Positions 2,472 to 10,600 of a stretch of DNA of 64,000 nucleotides are shown in pieces; positions within the stretch are counted from its first letter, which is position 1, and each line of letters opens with the position of its first letter. The translations under genes were made by a program, and so were the position numbers. The DNA is from Capillimicrobium parvum (GTDB taxonomy: Bacteria > Actinomycetota > Thermoleophilia > Solirubrobacterales > Solirubrobacteraceae): positions 1,798,001 through 1,862,000 of the forward strand of contig NZ_CP087164.1 of the NCBI RefSeq assembly GCF_021172045.1. Direction: 5' to 3'. The notes beneath the pieces were generated by a model. The model had not been told where the DNA came from and ran no database searches. It saw nothing but the letters and a program-made list of their open reading frames with translations.

Positions 2472-4208
2472 CTACCGGTCCGGGCGGTGGTGGCCCCGCC
2501 GGCCCGTCACCGCGTCGAGCGCGTTGACGATGCCCTCGCCGTAGAACCCGTTGAACGAGTCGCTGCCCTCGCACAGGGCGGTGTACTCGTCACCGAGGTC
2601 CGGGTCCGGGTAGTCGAACGGGTTCTGCTCGGGGCAGGCGTGGTCGTCCGCCGTCGCCTTGAGCACCTGCTCGACCAGGTCCGGATCGGCCCGCACGCCG
2701 CCGTTCTGGCGATCGCGCCTGCCGTAGCGCGCCACGATGAGCGCCGCGACGCCCACCGCGTGCGGCGCCGCCATCGACGTGCCCTGCAGGTACTGGTAGT
2801 ACGAGCAGGTGCCCGACGTGCAGTCGGCGACCACGAACGGGGTCGTCGGCGTGCCGGTCTCGTCGATGTCGCCGTTGGCCGCGGCCAGCGACGCCGGGTA
2901 CGGCGCCAGGATGAGGTTCGTGGGCGACCGGTAGAGCGACGTCCCGAAGTTGTCGCGGAAGTCGCCGCCGGGCGCCGACACGTCGGCCTGCTCGACCCCG
3001 TAATCGGAGTAGTAGGCCTTGCGCTCGCTCGGCCCGACCGAGGTCACGCCGATCACGCCGTCGGCCTCCGTCGGCATCGACAGGCACGAGTTGTCGATGT
3101 CGCGGTGGTGCGGCGAGCTCTCCTGGTCCGGGTAGTCCGGGCTGGTGTCGTCGACCACGGGCCTGCCGAGGTCGGTGTGCCCGTTGCCCTCCGCGGCGAT
3201 CGTCGTGACGCCGTGGTCGCGGGCGTAGCCGATCGCCCGTTGCGTCGCCGTGACGACCAGTCGCTGCTCGCGCTGCTCGGCCGGCGAGTCCGCCGGGTTC
3301 GAGGAGCAGTTGAACAGCCACGGGTCGATGTAGAACGACATGTTGACCACGTCGACGCCGTGGTCGCCGGCGTAGGTCAGCGCGTCGAGGACCGGGCCCA
3401 GGAAGAAGTAGCCCGAGTCCTGGCCGGCGCGCAGGCTGACGAGGTCGACGCCCGGGGCGACGCCCCCGATGCCGACGCCGTTCAGCGGTGCGCCGATCGT
3501 CCCGGCGACGTGCGTCCCGTGGCCGTCCTCGTCGACGTCCGCCGGGTCCTCGCACGACTGGTCGGCCTCCTCCTCGCACGGCCCGTCGACCACCGGGTCG
3601 TCGACGGTGAAGTTCCGGCTCAGCTCGCGGTCGAAGTTCGGCGCGATGTCCGGATGACTGCCGTCGATGCCCGTGTCGATGATCCCGACGCGTACGTCGT
3701 GCGTGCCCTGCGTGACGGCGTACGAGCCGTCGGGCGTCGCGTCGATCATCCGCATGTCCCACTGCAGCGAGGACAGCGGGTCGCCCGTCACCATGCCCGG
3801 AGCCTGCGCGCCGCGGTCGAAGCGCCGGCCGCGCTGACCGCGCGACGCGTCGCGCTGGCCCTGGACGCGCTCGAGTTCGCGCTGGCCCTTGCGCCGCTGC
3901 TGCGGGACCGACCCGATCGGGTCGTTCTGGGCCGCCCCCTCGAGCGCGCTGCTCGATGCGGCCTTGTCGGCGAAGGCGGCCGACTCCGCCTCGACCGTGG
4001 CGACGCCGATCGCCGTGTTCTCGCGGACGATCCGTCCGCCGGCGCGCGCGATGTCCTCCCGGGCCTGCGCGGCCGATGCGCCGTCCTTGTAGACGACGAC
4101 GTAGGTGCGGGCACCCGACTCGTCGGTGGCGGCCGAAGCCGCCCCGGCTACGGTGCCTGCGCTGCCTGTCGCGGCGACCAGCGCCACGAGCGAAGCGAGC
4201 TTCCTCAT
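2472..4208 (-). CDS. Secreted subtilisin-like serine protease (S8) with I9 propeptide
   Basis: 578-residue exported protease. Residues 1-26 form a signal peptide ending ASA. Residues ~35-80 form an inhibitor-I9-type propeptide (TYVVVYKDG onward). The S8 domain shows the catalytic triad: Asp178 in IIDTGID, His230 in DGHGTHVAG, Ser478 in GTSMAAPH. A Gln/Arg-rich linker (residues ~103-130) separates propeptide and protease and may be a processing site. Cysteine pairs around 211-219 and near the C-terminus suggest disulfides. The start was placed at the ATG with GGAGG a few bases upstream rather than at an earlier in-frame ATG. It likely degrades external protein. It is a single gene with a hairpin terminator. 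Confidence 0.93.
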   Translation of the reverse strand: MRKLASLVALVAATGSAGTVAGAASAATDESGARTYVVVYKDGASAAQAREDIARAGGRIVRENTAIGVATVEAESAAFADKAASSSALEGAAQNDPIGSVPQQRRKGQRELERVQGQRDASRGQRGRRFDRGAQAPGMVTGDPLSSLQWDMRMIDATPDGSYAVTQGTHDVRVGIIDTGIDGSHPDIAPNFDRELSRNFTVDDPVVDGPCEEEADQSCEDPADVDEDGHGTHVAGTIGAPLNGVGIGGVAPGVDLVSLRAGQDSGYFFLGPVLDALTYAGDHGVDVVNMSFYIDPWLFNCSSNPADSPAEQREQRLVVTATQRAIGYARDHGVTTIAAEGNGHTDLGRPVVDDTSPDYPDQESSPHHRDIDNSCLSMPTEADGVIGVTSVGPSERKAYYSDYGVEQADVSAPGGDFRDNFGTSLYRSPTNLILAPYPASLAAANGDIDETGTPTTPFVVADCTSGTCSYYQYLQGTSMAAPHAVGVAALIVARYGRRDRQNGGVRADPDLVEQVLKATADDHACPEQNPFDYPDPDLGDEYTALCEGSDSFNGFYGEGIVNALDAVTGRRGHHRPDR

Positions 4209-4311
4209 GCAACCTCCCCCTCCAGGGTTGTTGATCAGCGAACGGCCTCCCAACCGCTCGCAGCGTGGCGGGCACCTTAGAGGGCGACGCCCTCCGGACG
4301 GCGTGCGACGG

Positions 4312-4929
4312 TCACTCGACTGTCAGCCAGCGGACGTCGAGCCGGCTGCGGAACCGCTGCAGCGCGGTGACGAGCGCCGGGCCGAACGCGAGGTAGAACG
4401 CGACGTTGCCGGCGGCGTGCGCGAGGTTCCAGGGCAGCGACGTGCCCGAGATGACGAGGTACTCGTCGAGCGTGTGCCCGCCGGCGAACGTGGTCCACGT
4501 CGAGAGATCCATGATCGCGCCGAACATGAGCCCGGCCGCGCCGCACCACAGCGCCATCGGGACGCGGCGGGCCCGGCCCCGGCCGGCGCGGGCGAGGACG
4601 GCCCCGAGCAGGCCGACCAGCCCCCACGCGACCATCTGCCATGGCGTCCACGGGCCCTGGCCGAAGAACAGGTTCGACGCCAGCGCGGCGACGGCGCCGA
4701 CGACGAAGCCGGGCGCGCCGCCGAGCGCGAAGCCGGCGATGAGGACGATGTCGGTCGTCGGCTTGACGTTCGGGATGGGGGCGAAGGCGATGCGGCCCAG
4801 CGCGGCCAGTGCGGCCAGGGTCGCGACGAGCGCGATGACCTTCGACGGCGGGTGCGTGCGCTCGTACCAGGCGAACCCGGCGAGCAGGGCGACCGAGAGG
4901 ATCGCCAGCGAGGCGAAGGCCCAGCTCAT
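4312..4929 (-). CDS. ECF transporter substrate-binding (S) component, predicted cobalamin
   Basis: 205-residue integral membrane protein with about five to six helices. The segment IPNVKPTTDIVLIAGFALGG, followed by a conserved FFGQGPWTPWQM loop, is characteristic of a family of ECF S components found next to B12-regulated ATPases and EcfT proteins. In the complex it would bind the vitamin at the outer face and topple in the membrane to release it. Its ATG overlaps the ATPase stop (ATGA). It is the last gene of a six-gene operon starting at a cobalamin riboswitch, which is the main evidence for the substrate. Confidence 0.82.
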   Translation of the reverse strand: MSWAFASLAILSVALLAGFAWYERTHPPSKVIALVATLAALAALGRIAFAPIPNVKPTTDIVLIAGFALGGAPGFVVGAVAALASNLFFGQGPWTPWQMVAWGLVGLLGAVLARAGRGRARRVPMALWCGAAGLMFGAIMDLSTWTTFAGGHTLDEYLVISGTSLPWNLAHAAGNVAFYLAFGPALVTALQRFRSRLDVRWLTVE

Positions 4930-6500
4930 GGCCGCGGCGCCTCCCGCATCCCGGAGCGCAGCAGCTCGGCGCCCTCGGCGGGCGTCAGCGCGCCGCACAC
5001 CCGCGCCGTCTCGGTCGCGAAGTACCAGCCGCCGGTGAGCACCCGGTGCGGGTCGTCGTCGGCGATGACGTCGCCCTCGCCCATCAGGATGACCCGCTGG
5101 GCGAACGCGACCGCGAACTCCGGGTCGTGGGTCGCGACGAGCACCGCCGTGCCGCGCTCGGCGAAGGCCGCGATGTGCGCGGCGAGCTCGCCCTTGTGCG
5201 CGCGGTCCATGCCGCGGGTCGGCTCGTCGAGGCACAGCGCAGCGGGCGGCGTGGCGCCCGCCGTCACGATCGCCAGCGCGAGCCGCTGGCGCTCGCCGCC
5301 CGACAGGTCGCGCGGATGGCGGTCGGCGAGGTGCGCGAGGCAGTTCGCGTGCAGCGTGTCCGCGTCGACCTCGTCGCCCGCGCGCTCGGCGAGCAGGAGG
5401 TCGCCCGGGTTCTGCAGCAGCAGCGCGACCGGCCCGCCCGCGCGCACGCGTCCGCGAGTCGGCTCGAGGAGCCCGTTGGCGTGGCGCAGCAGCGTCGACT
5501 TGCCGGCGCCGTTGCGGCCCATGAGCGCGACCCGCTCGCCGGGCGCCAGCGCGAGGTCGATGCCGCGCAGCACGGCGCGCCCGCCGCGGCGCTCGAACCA
5601 CAGGCGCTCGAAGGCGAGCGCCGGGTGCTTGACCTTCGTGCGGCGCGGCGGCGGGGCGTCGGCCGGCGCGGGCGGCGCGATCGCGTGCTCGCGCAGCGTC
5701 GCGCGCGCCTGCTTGACGCCGCTCGGCAGCGGGCGCAGGCCGGCCAGCGAGAACATCCGCGCGGCCGGGGTGGCCAGCGAGGGCTCGTGGTCGATTGCCC
5801 AGGCGAGGAAGTCGCCGGGCGGCGCGTCGCAGGCGACGGCGCCGTCGACGAGCGCGATGACGCGGTCGGCGGCGGGCAGGCAGCGCTCGAGCCGGTGCTC
5901 GGCGAGGACGATCGCGGTGCCCCACTCCTCGTTGAGCCGGCGCAGCAGCCACACGAGCTCGTCGCCGGCGACGGGATCGAGCTGCGAGGTCGGCTCGTCG
6001 AGCAGCACGAGCTGCGGGCGCCCGGCCAGCGCGGCGCCGAGCGCGACGCGCTGCAGCTCGCCGCCGGAGAGCTCGTTGGTCGGGCGGTCGAGCAGCGAGG
6101 CGATGGCCAGCGCGAGCGCCGCCTCCTCGACGCCGCGCGCGACCGCCGCCGCCGGCCAGCCGCGGTTCTCCAGGCCGAAGCCGAGCTCGGCGCGGACGCT
6201 GCCCATGACCGTCTGGGTCTCCGGATCCTGGAACAGCGTGCCGACGTGCGCGGCGACGTCGCCGGGCCCGTGCTCGCGCGTGTCGAGGCCGGCGACGGTC
6301 ACCCGGCCGCCGAACGTCCCGCCGTGGAAGTGGGGGACCAGGCCGCAGGCGGCGCGCAGCAGCGTCGACTTGCCGGATGCCGAGAGCCCGCAGAGCACGA
6401 CGAACTCGCCGTCCTCGATGCGCAGGTCCACGTCGCGCAGCGAGGGCCGCGTCGCGCCGGCGTGCGTGTACGTGAGGCGCTCGATCTCGAGGACGGTCAT
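4926..6500 (-). CDS. ECF transporter double ATPase (fused EcfA-EcfA')
   Basis: 524-residue fusion of two ABC ATPase domains. The first has Walker A GLSASGKST (residues 38-46), an LSGGE signature and a LLDEPTSQLD Walker B. The second has Walker A GRNGAGKST (about residue 320), LSGGE and a CLDEPTRGMD Walker B. Each half contains the Q-loop context (FQDPETQ; LLQNPGD) typical of energy-coupling-factor ATPases. It hydrolyses ATP to drive the EcfT/S-component membrane complex. The start at MTVLEIERL was preferred over an ATG five codons earlier because it begins the domain directly. EcfT lies 52 bases upstream. Confidence 0.93.
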   Translation of the reverse strand: MTVLEIERLTYTHAGATRPSLRDVDLRIEDGEFVVLCGLSASGKSTLLRAACGLVPHFHGGTFGGRVTVAGLDTREHGPGDVAAHVGTLFQDPETQTVMGSVRAELGFGLENRGWPAAAVARGVEEAALALAIASLLDRPTNELSGGELQRVALGAALAGRPQLVLLDEPTSQLDPVAGDELVWLLRRLNEEWGTAIVLAEHRLERCLPAADRVIALVDGAVACDAPPGDFLAWAIDHEPSLATPAARMFSLAGLRPLPSGVKQARATLREHAIAPPAPADAPPPRRTKVKHPALAFERLWFERRGGRAVLRGIDLALAPGERVALMGRNGAGKSTLLRHANGLLEPTRGRVRAGGPVALLLQNPGDLLLAERAGDEVDADTLHANCLAHLADRHPRDLSGGERQRLALAIVTAGATPPAALCLDEPTRGMDRAHKGELAAHIAAFAERGTAVLVATHDPEFAVAFAQRVILMGEGDVIADDDPHRVLTGGWYFATETARVCGALTPAEGAELLRSGMREAPRP

Positions 6501-6552
6501 CGAGTGGCCTCCCATCGGGTCGTGGCCGGGGTGGATGACGACCCGCGGGGTC

Positions 6553-7419
6553 TCATCGCGCGATCCCGTGGCGGTCGGCGAACGGCGCGAGCGCGGCGGC
6601 GAGGACGACGGCGCCGAGGACGAGCGGGCCGGCGCCGCCGTCGATCCGCGTGAGGGGGTAGGCGTCGACGTTCGCCACGCCGGCGATCGCGCCCCCGGCG
6701 CCGGCCACGAGCAGCACGAGCGCGGAGAGGGCGAAGGCGACGTCGTGGCGCGACCACGGGCGGCGCTCGCTCGGGGGGCGGCGGGCGCCGCCGTAGCCGC
6801 GGACCTCGAGCGTGGCGGCGACGTCGGTGGCGCGGTCCAGCGCGCCCGACGCGACGGCCCTCACGAGCGCCAGCCGCGACGCCTTCGGCCCCGGGCGGCA
6901 GCGCTGCCCGTCGGCCAGGCGCCGTCCGTCCGCCGCCAGGACGCCGACCATCCGCGTGGCCAGCGTGGCGGTCAGGGCGGACCGGAACCCCGCGCGGCGG
7001 AAGAGGCGCAGGACCTGGTCGGGATCGACCGCGGCGGCGTACAGCGAGCAGGCGGCGATGACGGCCAGCGCGCGCAGCCCGAGCACGGCGCCGTAGACCA
7101 GCGCTTCGCGCGTGATGTCGAGCTCGCCCAGCGGCCCGACCCCGCCGAGCCGCAGGACGACCGTGAAGCCCTCGCGCGCGACGAGCGGGTTGATGACGAC
7201 GAACAGGACCGCGAGCGGCAGGCCGACGAGCAGCGTGAAGCGGCCGACCTCGCGCGCGACGCCGGCCGCGGCCGCCGCGCCGACCGTGGCGGCGACGACG
7301 GCGACGAGGACCACAGGGTGGGCGTTGGCGAGCGCGCAGGCCACGAGCGCGGCGCACCACGCGCACGCCACGGACGCACGCGCGGCGTGCAGCGGACTCG
7401 CGCGGCGCTGGTAGGTCAC
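6553..7419 (-). CDS. ECF transporter transmembrane coupling protein EcfT (CbiQ-like)
   Basis: 288-residue membrane protein with about six hydrophobic segments. It carries the EcfT cytosolic coupling motifs: DRATDVAATLEVRGYGG matches the A-R-G consensus that docks on the ATPases. It joins the ATPase pair to the S component. The GTG start overlaps the stop of the upstream lipoprotein gene as GTGA, indicating translational coupling between the surface binding protein and the transporter core. Confidence 0.88.
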   Translation of the reverse strand: MTYQRRASPLHAARASVACAWCAALVACALANAHPVVLVAVVAATVGAAAAAGVAREVGRFTLLVGLPLAVLFVVINPLVAREGFTVVLRLGGVGPLGELDITREALVYGAVLGLRALAVIAACSLYAAAVDPDQVLRLFRRAGFRSALTATLATRMVGVLAADGRRLADGQRCRPGPKASRLALVRAVASGALDRATDVAATLEVRGYGGARRPPSERRPWSRHDVAFALSALVLLVAGAGGAIAGVANVDAYPLTRIDGGAGPLVLGAVVLAAALAPFADRHGIAR

Positions 7420-8336
7420 CGCCCGGCGCCCTCGACGGGCAGCGGCGTGGGCGGCGCGTCGCCCGGGCCCACCGCGACCGCGAAGTGGCGGCGCAGCTTC
7501 TCGGCGTCGAGCGCATCGACCGCCGCGGCGATCCCGTTCGCGTCCGTGCCGGTCACGAACCACGTCGGCGGCTCGTCCTGGTAGCGCGTGGCGGCGATCA
7601 GGCCGGTGCCGGGCCCGAGCGTCCGCGCGGCGTCGCCGCGGTCGTCGAGGAGTTGCAGGGTTCGCCCGCCCTCGGCGAACCGGGCGAACACGCCGGACGC
7701 CCGCGGACCGTCGGCCAGCAGCCCGCCCGCGCGGTCACGGCGCAGCGCGGCCCAGGGGCCGATCAGGACGCGAAGGCGCGGCCCCGCGCTCATCGCGGGC
7801 GCGGCGGTGGCACCGTCGTCGTCGAGGCGTTCGCGCACCTTCGCGCACAGCTTCTCATCCGCGACGTGGCAGGCGACGGAGGTCTCCCAGCCGCGGTGCA
7901 GGCCGTGCACGAACGGCTCCGGGTACGCGCCGACGACGGCGGGCGAGCGCTGGGCGCCGTCCCACCGGTGGTGGTCCCACCAGATGCGGTCGCCGGCCCG
8001 CACGCGGATCCCCGTCGCGCCCTGGCCCGCCTCGACGCCGTTGACGTAGAAGAACCAGTCGACCATCCGCCCGCGGGCGGTCCCGCCGGCCAGGCCGTCG
8101 ATCGCCTGGACGAACCCGCCGCCGTAGCGGGTCTTCACGTCGAAGGCGCGCTGGAGGTAGCGCATGATCGTGTCCTGCCCCTGCGTCGCACCGGTCCGCT
8201 CGCCGAGCTGATGGGCGCCGAAGTCGCGGGTGACGACGAGCGCGACGTCCGGCTCGCTCTCGCCGGCCCCGACGCCGCACCCGGCGAGCGCGAGCGCGCA
8301 GCCCAGCACGGCGGCGAGGCCGGCGAGGCGGCTCAT
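7416..8336 (-). CDS. DUF4430 (transcobalamin beta-domain-like) lipoprotein
   Basis: 306-residue exported protein. Residues 1-20 are a lipoprotein signal with lipobox LAGC (Cys20), so it should be tethered to the outer face of the membrane. Residues ~55-125 form a DUF4430 domain: DTIMRYLQRAFDV, a YGGGFVQAIDGL strand pair, then MVDWFFYVNGVEAGQGATGIRVRAGDRIWW. That domain is related to the C-terminal beta domain of animal transcobalamin and intrinsic factor. The remaining C-terminal ~170 residues are an uncharacterised soluble region. ATGA overlap with the barrel gene upstream and GTGA overlap with ecfT downstream argue it works with the transporter. Confidence 0.85.
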   Translation of the reverse strand: MSRLAGLAAVLGCALALAGCGVGAGESEPDVALVVTRDFGAHQLGERTGATQGQDTIMRYLQRAFDVKTRYGGGFVQAIDGLAGGTARGRMVDWFFYVNGVEAGQGATGIRVRAGDRIWWDHHRWDGAQRSPAVVGAYPEPFVHGLHRGWETSVACHVADEKLCAKVRERLDDDGATAAPAMSAGPRLRVLIGPWAALRRDRAGGLLADGPRASGVFARFAEGGRTLQLLDDRGDAARTLGPGTGLIAATRYQDEPPTWFVTGTDANGIAAAVDALDAEKLRRHFAVAVGPGDAPPTPLPVEGAGR

Positions 8337-9283
8337 CGCAGCGGGAACGCCCGGCGCGCGAAGGCGGTCAGCGCCTGCGCGGTGACCCACACCGGCGTCT
8401 GGCCGCTCGTGCGCGAGTAGCGCACCGAGCCGTCGGCCGCCTGCAGCGAGCGCAGGAACGCGAGCGGGGTGCGGCTGCCGCCGCGGCGCACGCCATCGGG
8501 GTTGCGCCCCGTGGCGACGAACGCCTGCACCGCCCACGCGGTCGACTGGGCGTTGGACGGCCCGCCGGGCTGCAGCGGGAAGCCGCCGTCGGGGCGCTGC
8601 TGGGCGGCGACGAAGCGGGCCCCGCGGCGCACCGGCGCCGAGCCTCGCGACTGCCCGCCCGCGACGAGGCCCTGCAGCGCGGCCGCGGTGTCGTCGATCC
8701 CGCTGCGCCCGCCGCGGCCCTGGAAGTTCCAGCCGCCGTCGCGGTTCTGCTGGCGCAGCAGGAACCGGACGCCGCCGCGCACCGCGCCGTCGCTCGTCGA
8801 GCGCCCGGCGGCACGCAGCGCCATGACGCCGAACGCCGTCCAGTTCACCAGCCCGTCGAACGAGCCGTCGGCGCGGCGGCGCGACAGCAGCCGGCGCACG
8901 AGCCCGCCCGGCACGCGCTGGCGCGATGCGCGCAGCGCGAGGATCGAGCGCTCGACGTCGCCGGTCGAGCGGGCCCGGCCGGCGTCCGCGCGCACGGCGG
9001 CGGCGAGCGAGCGCCCGCCGCGGCGGTGCATCGATGCTGGCGGCCGTCCGGCGGCCGCGACGCCGAGCGCGCCCCATTGGGTGGTCAGTGCGGCGGAGCG
9101 GCCGCCCGGCGCGCCGGGCAGCCCCCCGTCGGCGTTCTGCGCGCGCGCGACGTAGCCCAGCGCGCGCTGCGCCGCGGTCGCGCCCGCCGCGGGGGCGGAT
9201 CCGACGATGGCGCCGGCGGCGGTCGCCACCGCGGCGGTGGCGAGGACGACGCCGACGCGCCGGCGCCGGGCGCTACCGGACAC
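8333..9283 (-). CDS. Secreted alpha/alpha-barrel repeat protein (prenyltransferase/terpene-cyclase-like fold)
   Basis: 316-residue protein with an N-terminal Arg-rich, hydrophobic export signal (residues 1-35). The rest contains at least five QW-like repeats: ARAQNADGGLPG, RRRADGSFDG, RQQNRDGGWNFQ, AAQQRPDGGFPL and SLQAADGSVRYS, spaced about 50-60 residues apart. Such repeats build alpha6/alpha6 barrels as in squalene cyclases, prenyltransferases and the alpha domain of transcobalamin. The DXDD acid motif of cyclases is not seen, so a binding rather than catalytic role is likely. It sits between two DUF4430 genes behind a B12 riboswitch; the GTG start overlaps the upstream gene by 11 bases. 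Confidence 0.82.
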   Translation of the reverse strand: MSGSARRRRVGVVLATAAVATAAGAIVGSAPAAGATAAQRALGYVARAQNADGGLPGAPGGRSAALTTQWGALGVAAAGRPPASMHRRGGRSLAAAVRADAGRARSTGDVERSILALRASRQRVPGGLVRRLLSRRRADGSFDGLVNWTAFGVMALRAAGRSTSDGAVRGGVRFLLRQQNRDGGWNFQGRGGRSGIDDTAAALQGLVAGGQSRGSAPVRRGARFVAAQQRPDGGFPLQPGGPSNAQSTAWAVQAFVATGRNPDGVRRGGSRTPLAFLRSLQAADGSVRYSRTSGQTPVWVTAQALTAFARRAFPLR

Positions 9284-10394
9284 GGAACCGCACGCTCGCG
9301 TTCGTGGACCGGTTGCCGGCGGCGTCGGTCGCGCGCACCTGCAGCTGGTAGAGCCCCCGCCCGAGCCGCTTGGGCAGCAGGTACGACCAGCTCGCGTCGT
9401 CGCCCGCGTCGAACCACGCCGCGCCGCGCCCGCACGAGCGCTTGACGAACCGCTCCCGGTCGGCGCTGAACGACGAGCACCCCTTCCCGCGCTTGCGCTC
9501 GAGGCGCAGCTGCACCTGCTTGACGGCGCCCTGGTCGGCGACCGTGCCGTGCAGCTCGCGCGGGGCCCCGCGCCGCGAGAAGTGCTGGCCGTTGCGCAGG
9601 CCGGCGATGAGCGCGAGCGGCGCGCTGCGGTCGGCCGGGGGCGCTGCGGTCGATGGCTCGGCCGGAGGCGTGGGCTCGCCCGGCGCCGGCGGCGCGGGCG
9701 GGGCGGGACCGGGTTCGGTCACCGGCGCGGCGCTCACCGCGACGGTGGCCAAGGGCGTCGGCACCGATGCGGGCGCCGTGGCCTGCAGCTTCGCCGTGCC
9801 CGGCGTACCCAGGACGAGCGTCGCCGTCCCGTCGGCGCCGGTCGTGGCGGTCGCGCCTGCGCCGTCGGTGACCGTCGCGCCCGCAATGGGCGTGGGCGTC
9901 GTCGTGTTGCCGTCGCTGACGTGGCGGACGACCCGGACCGTGAACGGCGCGCCGGCGGTCACCGCCGCCGGGACGGACGAGAAGTACAGCGGGAAGACCG
10001 TTCCGACGAACCCGGGCCCGTCGCGCTGGACGTAGAACAGGAGCTCGTCGCCGGCCTGCACCGTGTAGTCGCACGCGCCGACCTGGCTGTAGCTGCCGTT
10101 GACCCAGAACGCCCAGTAGTCGCTGTGGGCGTAGGCGTGGCTCTCGCCGAGGATCGTCGACACGAACTCCTGGCGATCCCAGTTGCCGGCGGTCGCGACG
10201 TCGAGCGCGCCCGCGGCGCTGGACCCGGCGCATCTCATCCCGGGAACGTTCGCCGAGGGCGTGTTGACGACGGCCGTGCCGCCGATCGTGTCGCCGGCGA
10301 TCCGCACCGTGGTGGACACCGCGAGGGCCGGCGTGGCCGCCAGGCCGAGGGTCACCAAGGCAACGGCGAAGAGCCGGAGGAACCTGTACCGCAT
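9273..10394 (-). CDS. Secreted DUF4430 protein with Ig-like C-terminal domain
   Basis: 373-residue exported protein and first gene of the B12 operon. Signal peptide residues 1-25 (ends PALA). Residues ~75-125 carry the DUF4430 core (SDYWAFWVNGSYSQVGACDY, then VQAGDELLFYVQ). Residues ~135-235 look like an Ig/bacterial-surface beta domain. A Pro/Ala-rich linker (~237-275) leads to a second beta domain with Cys residues and the closing ATDAAGNRSTNASVRF signature of Ig-like domains. No membrane anchor is seen after the signal. The ATG was chosen with AAAGGGG about 11 bases upstream; an in-frame GTG four codons earlier is possible. It probably captures corrinoid outside the cell. Confidence 0.82.
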   Translation of the reverse strand: MRYRFLRLFAVALVTLGLAATPALAVSTTVRIAGDTIGGTAVVNTPSANVPGMRCAGSSAAGALDVATAGNWDRQEFVSTILGESHAYAHSDYWAFWVNGSYSQVGACDYTVQAGDELLFYVQRDGPGFVGTVFPLYFSSVPAAVTAGAPFTVRVVRHVSDGNTTTPTPIAGATVTDGAGATATTGADGTATLVLGTPGTAKLQATAPASVPTPLATVAVSAAPVTEPGPAPPAPPAPGEPTPPAEPSTAAPPADRSAPLALIAGLRNGQHFSRRGAPRELHGTVADQGAVKQVQLRLERKRGKGCSSFSADRERFVKRSCGRGAAWFDAGDDASWSYLLPKRLGRGLYQLQVRATDAAGNRSTNASVRFRVR

Positions 10395-10439
10395 GTCGTA
10401 CTGCACCCCTTTCCGCGAGGGCGTCGTGACTGATGGCGG

Positions 10440-10598
10440 CCGGAGGCAGGTCTCCTGGCTCCCGGGCCCATCGTTCACGCCTTCCCGGGCTCATGGCCCA
10501 GTGGCTCGCGCGCGGCGCGTGTGCACGACATCCCCGGTCACAGTGGCGGGTCCGCGCCGGATTCGCACCGGCTTCCCTTCACCACCGACCGCTGGGGA
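10440..10598 (-). promoter_or_regulatory. Cobalamin riboswitch (AdoCbl/B12 element)
   Basis: Read on the minus strand, the conserved elements come in order: GGTGGTGAAGGGAA, GCCGGTGCGAATCCGG, the box GACCCGCCACTGTGACC, then GCCACTGGGC with GGGAAGGC, and finally GAGCCAGGAGACCTGCC. This matches the cobalamin riboswitch family closely. The last segment ends about 45 bases before the first ATG, so it probably controls ribosome access or early termination. When B12 is plentiful the operon should be shut down. The 5' edge touches the stop codon of the upstream glycosyltransferase. Confidence 0.95.
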
Positions 10599-10600
10599 AT

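Follow-up and report, generated by a model that had tools for sequence, protein, structure and literature searches.

Energy-coupling factor (ECF) transporters are usually described as capturing their substrates through the S component alone. ECF-CbrT of Lactobacillus delbrueckii, an ECF transporter whose import of cobalamin and cobinamide has been proven by experiment (6FNP; PMC5997447), is the closest described transporter to the system examined here. From another direction, Burroughs et al. (2007) described bacterial proteins with transcobalamin-type beta-grasp domains, fusions of these to alpha/alpha toroids, and operons with CbiO and CbiQ, for which they predicted a role in B12 scavenging; a second paralogous extracellular protein is often encoded in the same operons (PMC1796856). 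Here we describe an operon in a 64,000-nucleotide stretch of the genome of Capillimicrobium parvum, an actinobacterium of soil type (contig NZ_CP087164.1, positions 1,798,001 to 1,862,000; the window), that brings these two lines together. Computational analysis of the window and its relatives reveals an operon headed by a conserved cobalamin riboswitch, an S component homologous to CbrT, both folds of transcobalamin and, in relatives, a fusion of one of these folds to the S component with a predicted topology. We consider it probable, at roughly three chances in four, that the operon encodes a riboswitch-controlled CbrT-type importer for cobalamin or other corrinoids, equipped with its own ECF module and with a capture device made from both transcobalamin folds.

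Four independent lines agree on B12, the substrate proposed in a preliminary description of this DNA, and make it a well-supported prediction. The first of these, the riboswitch, is a full-length aptamer, as we required for such a call, scoring above the RF00174 gathering score of 31.5; it is the only one found in the 5.95-Mb genome. An aptamer occupies the same position in 19 of the 19 relatives first scanned, as well as in further loci of more distant families. When 21 S components were combined into a profile and compared with the PDB, the match was to 6FNP_A (E = 2e-28, positions 25–197), with no other solved sequence at E = 1 or better; from its length and the alignment, this chain appears to be the CbrT subunit. 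Judged by reading their sequences, genes on the far side of the riboswitch in relatives appear to encode a cobalamin adenosyltransferase of the PduO type and, at one locus, CobT and CobS. Finally, the C. parvum genome, rated 96% complete, encodes six B12-binding domains and an adenosyltransferase and has no match to CbiC or CobS, the two biosynthesis families searched, which points to a user of B12 that does not synthesize it. The preliminary description had explained the B12 demand by an ethylmalonyl-CoA mutase in the window. The link is a fair one, as a mutase with a B12-binding domain and an adjoining MeaB is present, but it accounts for only one of the six domains, and its NCBIfam assignment is to the methylmalonyl-CoA mutase family as a whole, with ethylmalonyl-CoA mutase not singled out.

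Both folds that make up transcobalamin had been proposed for the surface proteins of the operon, and the structural models bear this out. In the model of the DUF4430 lipoprotein, the one DUF4430 protein that was modeled, a beta-grasp domain (residues 28–126) precedes an alpha/beta domain (130–292). The best structural match of residues 28–126 is haptocorrin (Z = 12.9, rmsd [root-mean-square deviation] 2.0 over 93 residues), followed by Ruminococcus gnavus 3u7z, transcobalamin (Z = 12.2) and intrinsic factor (Z = 12.0), all above unrelated structures. These relatives appeared through the structural model alone, since the sequence profile of the lipoprotein found no relative in the PDB. The model places a helix at 57–64 and, behind it, a hairpin with strands 67–70 and 75–79 that contains a nearly invariant tyrosine, Y71; in transcobalamin, the hairpin after the helix contacts B12 (PMC1796856). 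The domain at 130–292 resembles BcsB and the N-terminal domains of sugar enzymes (Z = 7–10). The AlphaFold2 model of the second surface protein is an alpha6/alpha6 barrel of 12 helices with a pLDDT (predicted local distance difference test) of 87.9 and most residues above 90, and transcobalamin 2v3n is among its Foldseek matches (E = 8.5e-6). Its N terminus, RRRRVGVVLATAAVATAAGAIVGSAPAAGA, reads as a signal peptide. Barrel and beta domain are not joined in one chain: the two are encoded apart from each other, both in the window and in every operon examined.

How, then, is the barrel connected to transport? In 24 related loci, S component and barrel form a single open frame, as at L039:12001-13767 and, in the complete genome of Conexibacter sp. 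S30A1, at L024:11355-12908. In all 24 fused proteins, the S component has a basic end (RFRxR...), from which a hydrophobic helix leads to the barrel, and 19 have a second, C-terminal helix, in many cases followed by basic residues. Since the positive-inside rule places the basic end of the S component inside, the fused barrel is predicted to sit outside, tethered at the membrane beside the S component. The signal peptide of the free barrel in the window corresponds to this tether helix. In other families, the barrel gene lies directly 3′ of the S-component gene. In a sample of 200 Thermoleophilia genomes, 125 proved to have the S component, and among the relatives searched, nine had a match to neither S component nor barrel.

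The arrangement in the window appears to be derived from the fused one. In a maximum-likelihood tree of 45 S components, in which the bootstrap had not converged, the sister of the window S component is a fused S component of the same genus (support 96/96), and fused forms dominate the surrounding part of the tree. Because the window protein is sister to a fused form amid mostly fused forms, the simplest reading of the sequences is that the barrel left the S component within the genus and became a secreted protein. Like the window, another genome of the genus (G001) combines a free S component with a barrel gene directly behind that of the secreted DUF4430 protein. The split design is thus not supported in the form given in the preliminary description: it is not the ground state of the operon, and what has been separated in the window is the barrel from the S component, not the barrel from DUF4430.

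The riboswitch and the six genes behind it follow one another in the order first described (Table 1), and this order is conserved in relatives, which argues that the grouping is not due to chance. All six assignments pass the curated Pfam cut-offs: PF14478 (DUF4430) reaches 41.1 and 49.8 bits in two proteins against a cut-off of 23.8, the barrel matches SQHop_cyclase_C and Prenyltrans, and EcfT and two ATPase domains are both present. The two DUF4430 domains of the operon are the only ones found in the genome. Overlaps mark four of the five junctions of this operon, for which almost complete translational coupling had been proposed. The GTG start of the barrel gene lies inside the 3′ end of the secreted DUF4430 gene, an overlap of 11 bases; barrel and lipoprotein genes (ATGA), lipoprotein and EcfT genes (GTGA), and ATPase and S-component genes (ATGA) overlap by 4 bases, and a 37-base gap separates EcfT from EcfA-EcfA′. 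Promoter and terminator scans gave no result. The S-component gene is closely followed on the minus strand by that of an apparent subtilisin-like secreted protease, which nothing connects with B12.

Table 1. Cobalamin riboswitch, operon genes and other genes of the window mentioned in the text (window positions)
Feature	Position	Strand	Evidence
Cobalamin riboswitch aptamer RF00174, head of operon	10601-10428	-	cmscan 93.2 bits, E 7e-22, model 1-189 of 189
Secreted DUF4430 protein, 373 aa (amino acids), signal peptide; CarboxypepD_reg/Ig (immunoglobulin)-like C-terminal parts	10394-9273	-	Pfam DUF4430 2.5e-10, Big_13 1.8e-7
Secreted alpha6/alpha6 barrel (QW/prenyltransferase-repeat toroid), 316 aa, GTG start	9283-8333	-	Pfam SQHop_cyclase_C 2.3e-11, Prenyltrans; both above cut-off
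DUF4430 lipoprotein, 306 aa; lipobox LAGC, Cys20	8336-7416	-	Pfam DUF4430 4.6e-13
EcfT (CbiQ-type transmembrane coupling protein)	7419-6553	-	Pfam CbiQ 4.6e-15
Fused EcfA-EcfA′ ATPase	6515-4926	-	Two ABC_tran stretches 1.4e-42; NCBIfam ECF_ATPase_1 2.8e-77
CbrT-type S component, extra N-terminal membrane helix, without C-terminal barrel of relatives	4929-4312	-	Pfam ECF_trnsprt 31.5 bits, cut-off 30.7
Subtilisin-like secreted protease	2472-4253	-	By reading
Mutase with B12-binding domain, MeaB adjoining	59443-57449	-	NCBIfam methylmalonyl-CoA mutase family

How might such a system work? When B12 is short, the riboswitch would permit expression, and with ample B12 the operon would be off. By analogy with the alpha and beta domains of transcobalamin, we infer that the barrel and the secreted and lipid-anchored DUF4430 beta domains bind B12, sandwiching the corrinoid outside the membrane, and hand it over to the S component. 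In most Solirubrobacterales, a barrel tethered over the outer face of the S component would present the ligand to it. Driven by EcfA-EcfA′-EcfT, the S component would then topple and release the corrinoid inside. In the lineage of the window, the tether would have been lost, leaving the barrel as a separate secreted protein whose gene lies between the two DUF4430 genes. We lean, by a small measure, toward describing the whole as a binding-protein-assisted ECF transporter, in which a B12 S component carries a tethered transcobalamin-type barrel, DUF4430 lipoproteins supply the second half of the clamp, and the tether has been cut in the window.

Several points weigh against a capture device of this kind. 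The barrel and the DUF4430 proteins are putative B12 binders, and DUF4430 domains are also known from settings without a clear link to B12 (PMC1796856). In both sequence and fold, the barrel is closer to squalene-hopene cyclases, its nearest solved structures (Z = 28.6), than to transcobalamin, which is absent from the 60 best sequence matches of the barrel profile. The pairing of barrel and S component also has irregular cases: in G005, a fragmentary assembly, part of a barrel lies where a contig ends and no S component is matched, and five family f4 genomes have their nearest barrel, a weaker match that may not be an orthologue, at another locus without a riboswitch. Moreover, CbrT binds and moves B12 with no extracellular partner (PMC5997447). 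This last point, together with the Ig-like and wall-type domains of the DUF4430 proteins, would suit a B12 importer whose barrel and DUF4430 proteins are surface scaffolds, or bind a cobalamin carrier or cell-wall polysaccharide instead of B12. We regard this as unlikely, as a scaffold role alone does not readily account for the pairing of the two transcobalamin folds after a B12 riboswitch, or for a barrel fused to a B12 S component.

The likeness to cyclases, and the retention of a DXDD-like motif where one would expect it by 9 of 26 homologues, would also fit a squalene-hopene or other class II terpene cyclase that stands in the operon by chance. However, the window barrel has GIDD in place of DXDD, and with the motif intact in so few homologues, the barrel is unlikely to be an enzyme. 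Its signal peptide, its single toroid, the fusion with the S component seen in relatives and the position behind B12 riboswitches also speak against a terpene cyclase, which we rejected and consider highly improbable. It is also conceivable that the substrate is not B12 itself but a precursor of it or another corrinoid, for example cobinamide, or else cobalt: EcfT and the ATPase resemble those of Cbi-type cobalt importers, and cobinamide is carried by CbrT as well (PMC5997447). This is quite improbable, as CbrT is the sole solved S component that is matched, and cobalt or cobinamide would be of little use where CbiC and CobS were not found; transport of cobalt only was rejected. An importer of cobalamin or other corrinoids with a transcobalamin-type capture device remains our preferred explanation.

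Other loci show further arrangements around cobalamin riboswitches and DUF4430 proteins. Elsewhere among actinobacterial families, the riboswitch is followed first by a gene for a large secreted PQQ (pyrroloquinoline quinone)-type beta-propeller protein (L101:7160-9751, L098:10909-13458 and L096:10927-12990), reminiscent of BtuG, the beta-propeller B12 lipoprotein of Bacteroides. Beside ECF genes at L093:7817-14749 and L094:5516-12361 lie genes for proteins of ~2300 aa with two to three DUF4430 domains and Ig-like and other surface domains; large Coriobacteriia-like DUF4430 proteins of this size were considered as barrel fusions and this was rejected, since Pfam finds no barrel in them but beta-propeller and Ig-like parts. 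At L053:10635-11023, two divergent cobalamin riboswitches stand back to back, one heading the ECF operon and the other the gene of a 761-aa protein that has collagen-like repeats and matches the barrel weakly; its reading as a barrel-DUF4430 fusion was likewise rejected, as Pfam finds collagen repeats only. A lone DUF4430 lipoprotein gene lies between those of an apparent cobalamin adenosyltransferase and an apparent NAD(P) transhydrogenase at L025:5646-6557 and L028:7917-8837. No ECF genes and no riboswitch were found in these two stretches, and it is possible that the lone lipoprotein is a reduced form of the system.

The preliminary description knew of no characterized example of this design, and the literature searched holds no experimental case, but the concept was predicted in 2007 (PMC1796856). 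The operon is thus a novel form of an already predicted design. In the literature searched, we found no description of a barrel fused to a CbrT-type S component or of a fused and split pair within one genus; ECF surveys may hold an earlier mention. The operon gives the prediction of B12 scavenging by bacterial transcobalamin relatives a concrete and testable form, a machine in which a carrier barrel is joined to a proven type of B12 transporter subunit. If our interpretation is right, it shows a way for ECF importers to use extracytoplasmic binding parts and provides a bacterial setting for the two folds combined in the B12 carriers of animals. The fused and split forms in sister genomes offer a natural experiment on the importance of tethering.

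The barrel also matches the NCBIfam SCO2321 family of Streptomyces membrane proteins (4.8e-24, below the family cut-off), whose name carries no function; a related cluster of ECF, S-component, barrel and DUF4430 genes is present in a large-genome actinobacterium (L092). There, a cobalamin riboswitch on the opposite strand (L092:2594-2787) adjoins the cluster and apparently heads a peptide- or metal-type ABC (ATP-binding cassette) importer with a binding lipoprotein. With ECF-CbrT (6FNP; PMC5997447), the window operon has in common an S component homologous over the whole core, an ECF module and a B12 context. Whereas CbrT shares its module with other S components and has neither an extracellular partner nor a fused barrel, the window operon has a module of its own, with EcfA and EcfA′ fused, and encodes transcobalamin-fold proteins beside the transporter. 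The SLBB systems of Burroughs et al. (PMC1796856) resemble it in their secreted DUF4430/SLBB proteins, often two per operon, their toroid, CbiO and CbiQ, and the predicted B12 scavenging. In those systems, however, the toroid is fused to SLBB, whereas the barrel described here stands alone or is joined to the S component, and the riboswitch and S-component fusion are absent from the portion of the 2007 account cited here. Transcobalamin, intrinsic factor and haptocorrin of animals share both folds, and the beta domain of these carriers can be aligned with the modeled DUF4430 domain at Z = 11–13, whereas the window barrel is nearer in sequence to cyclases. The animal carriers hold both domains in one soluble chain that is taken up by receptors; here, the two folds belong to separate bacterial proteins beside an ECF transporter.

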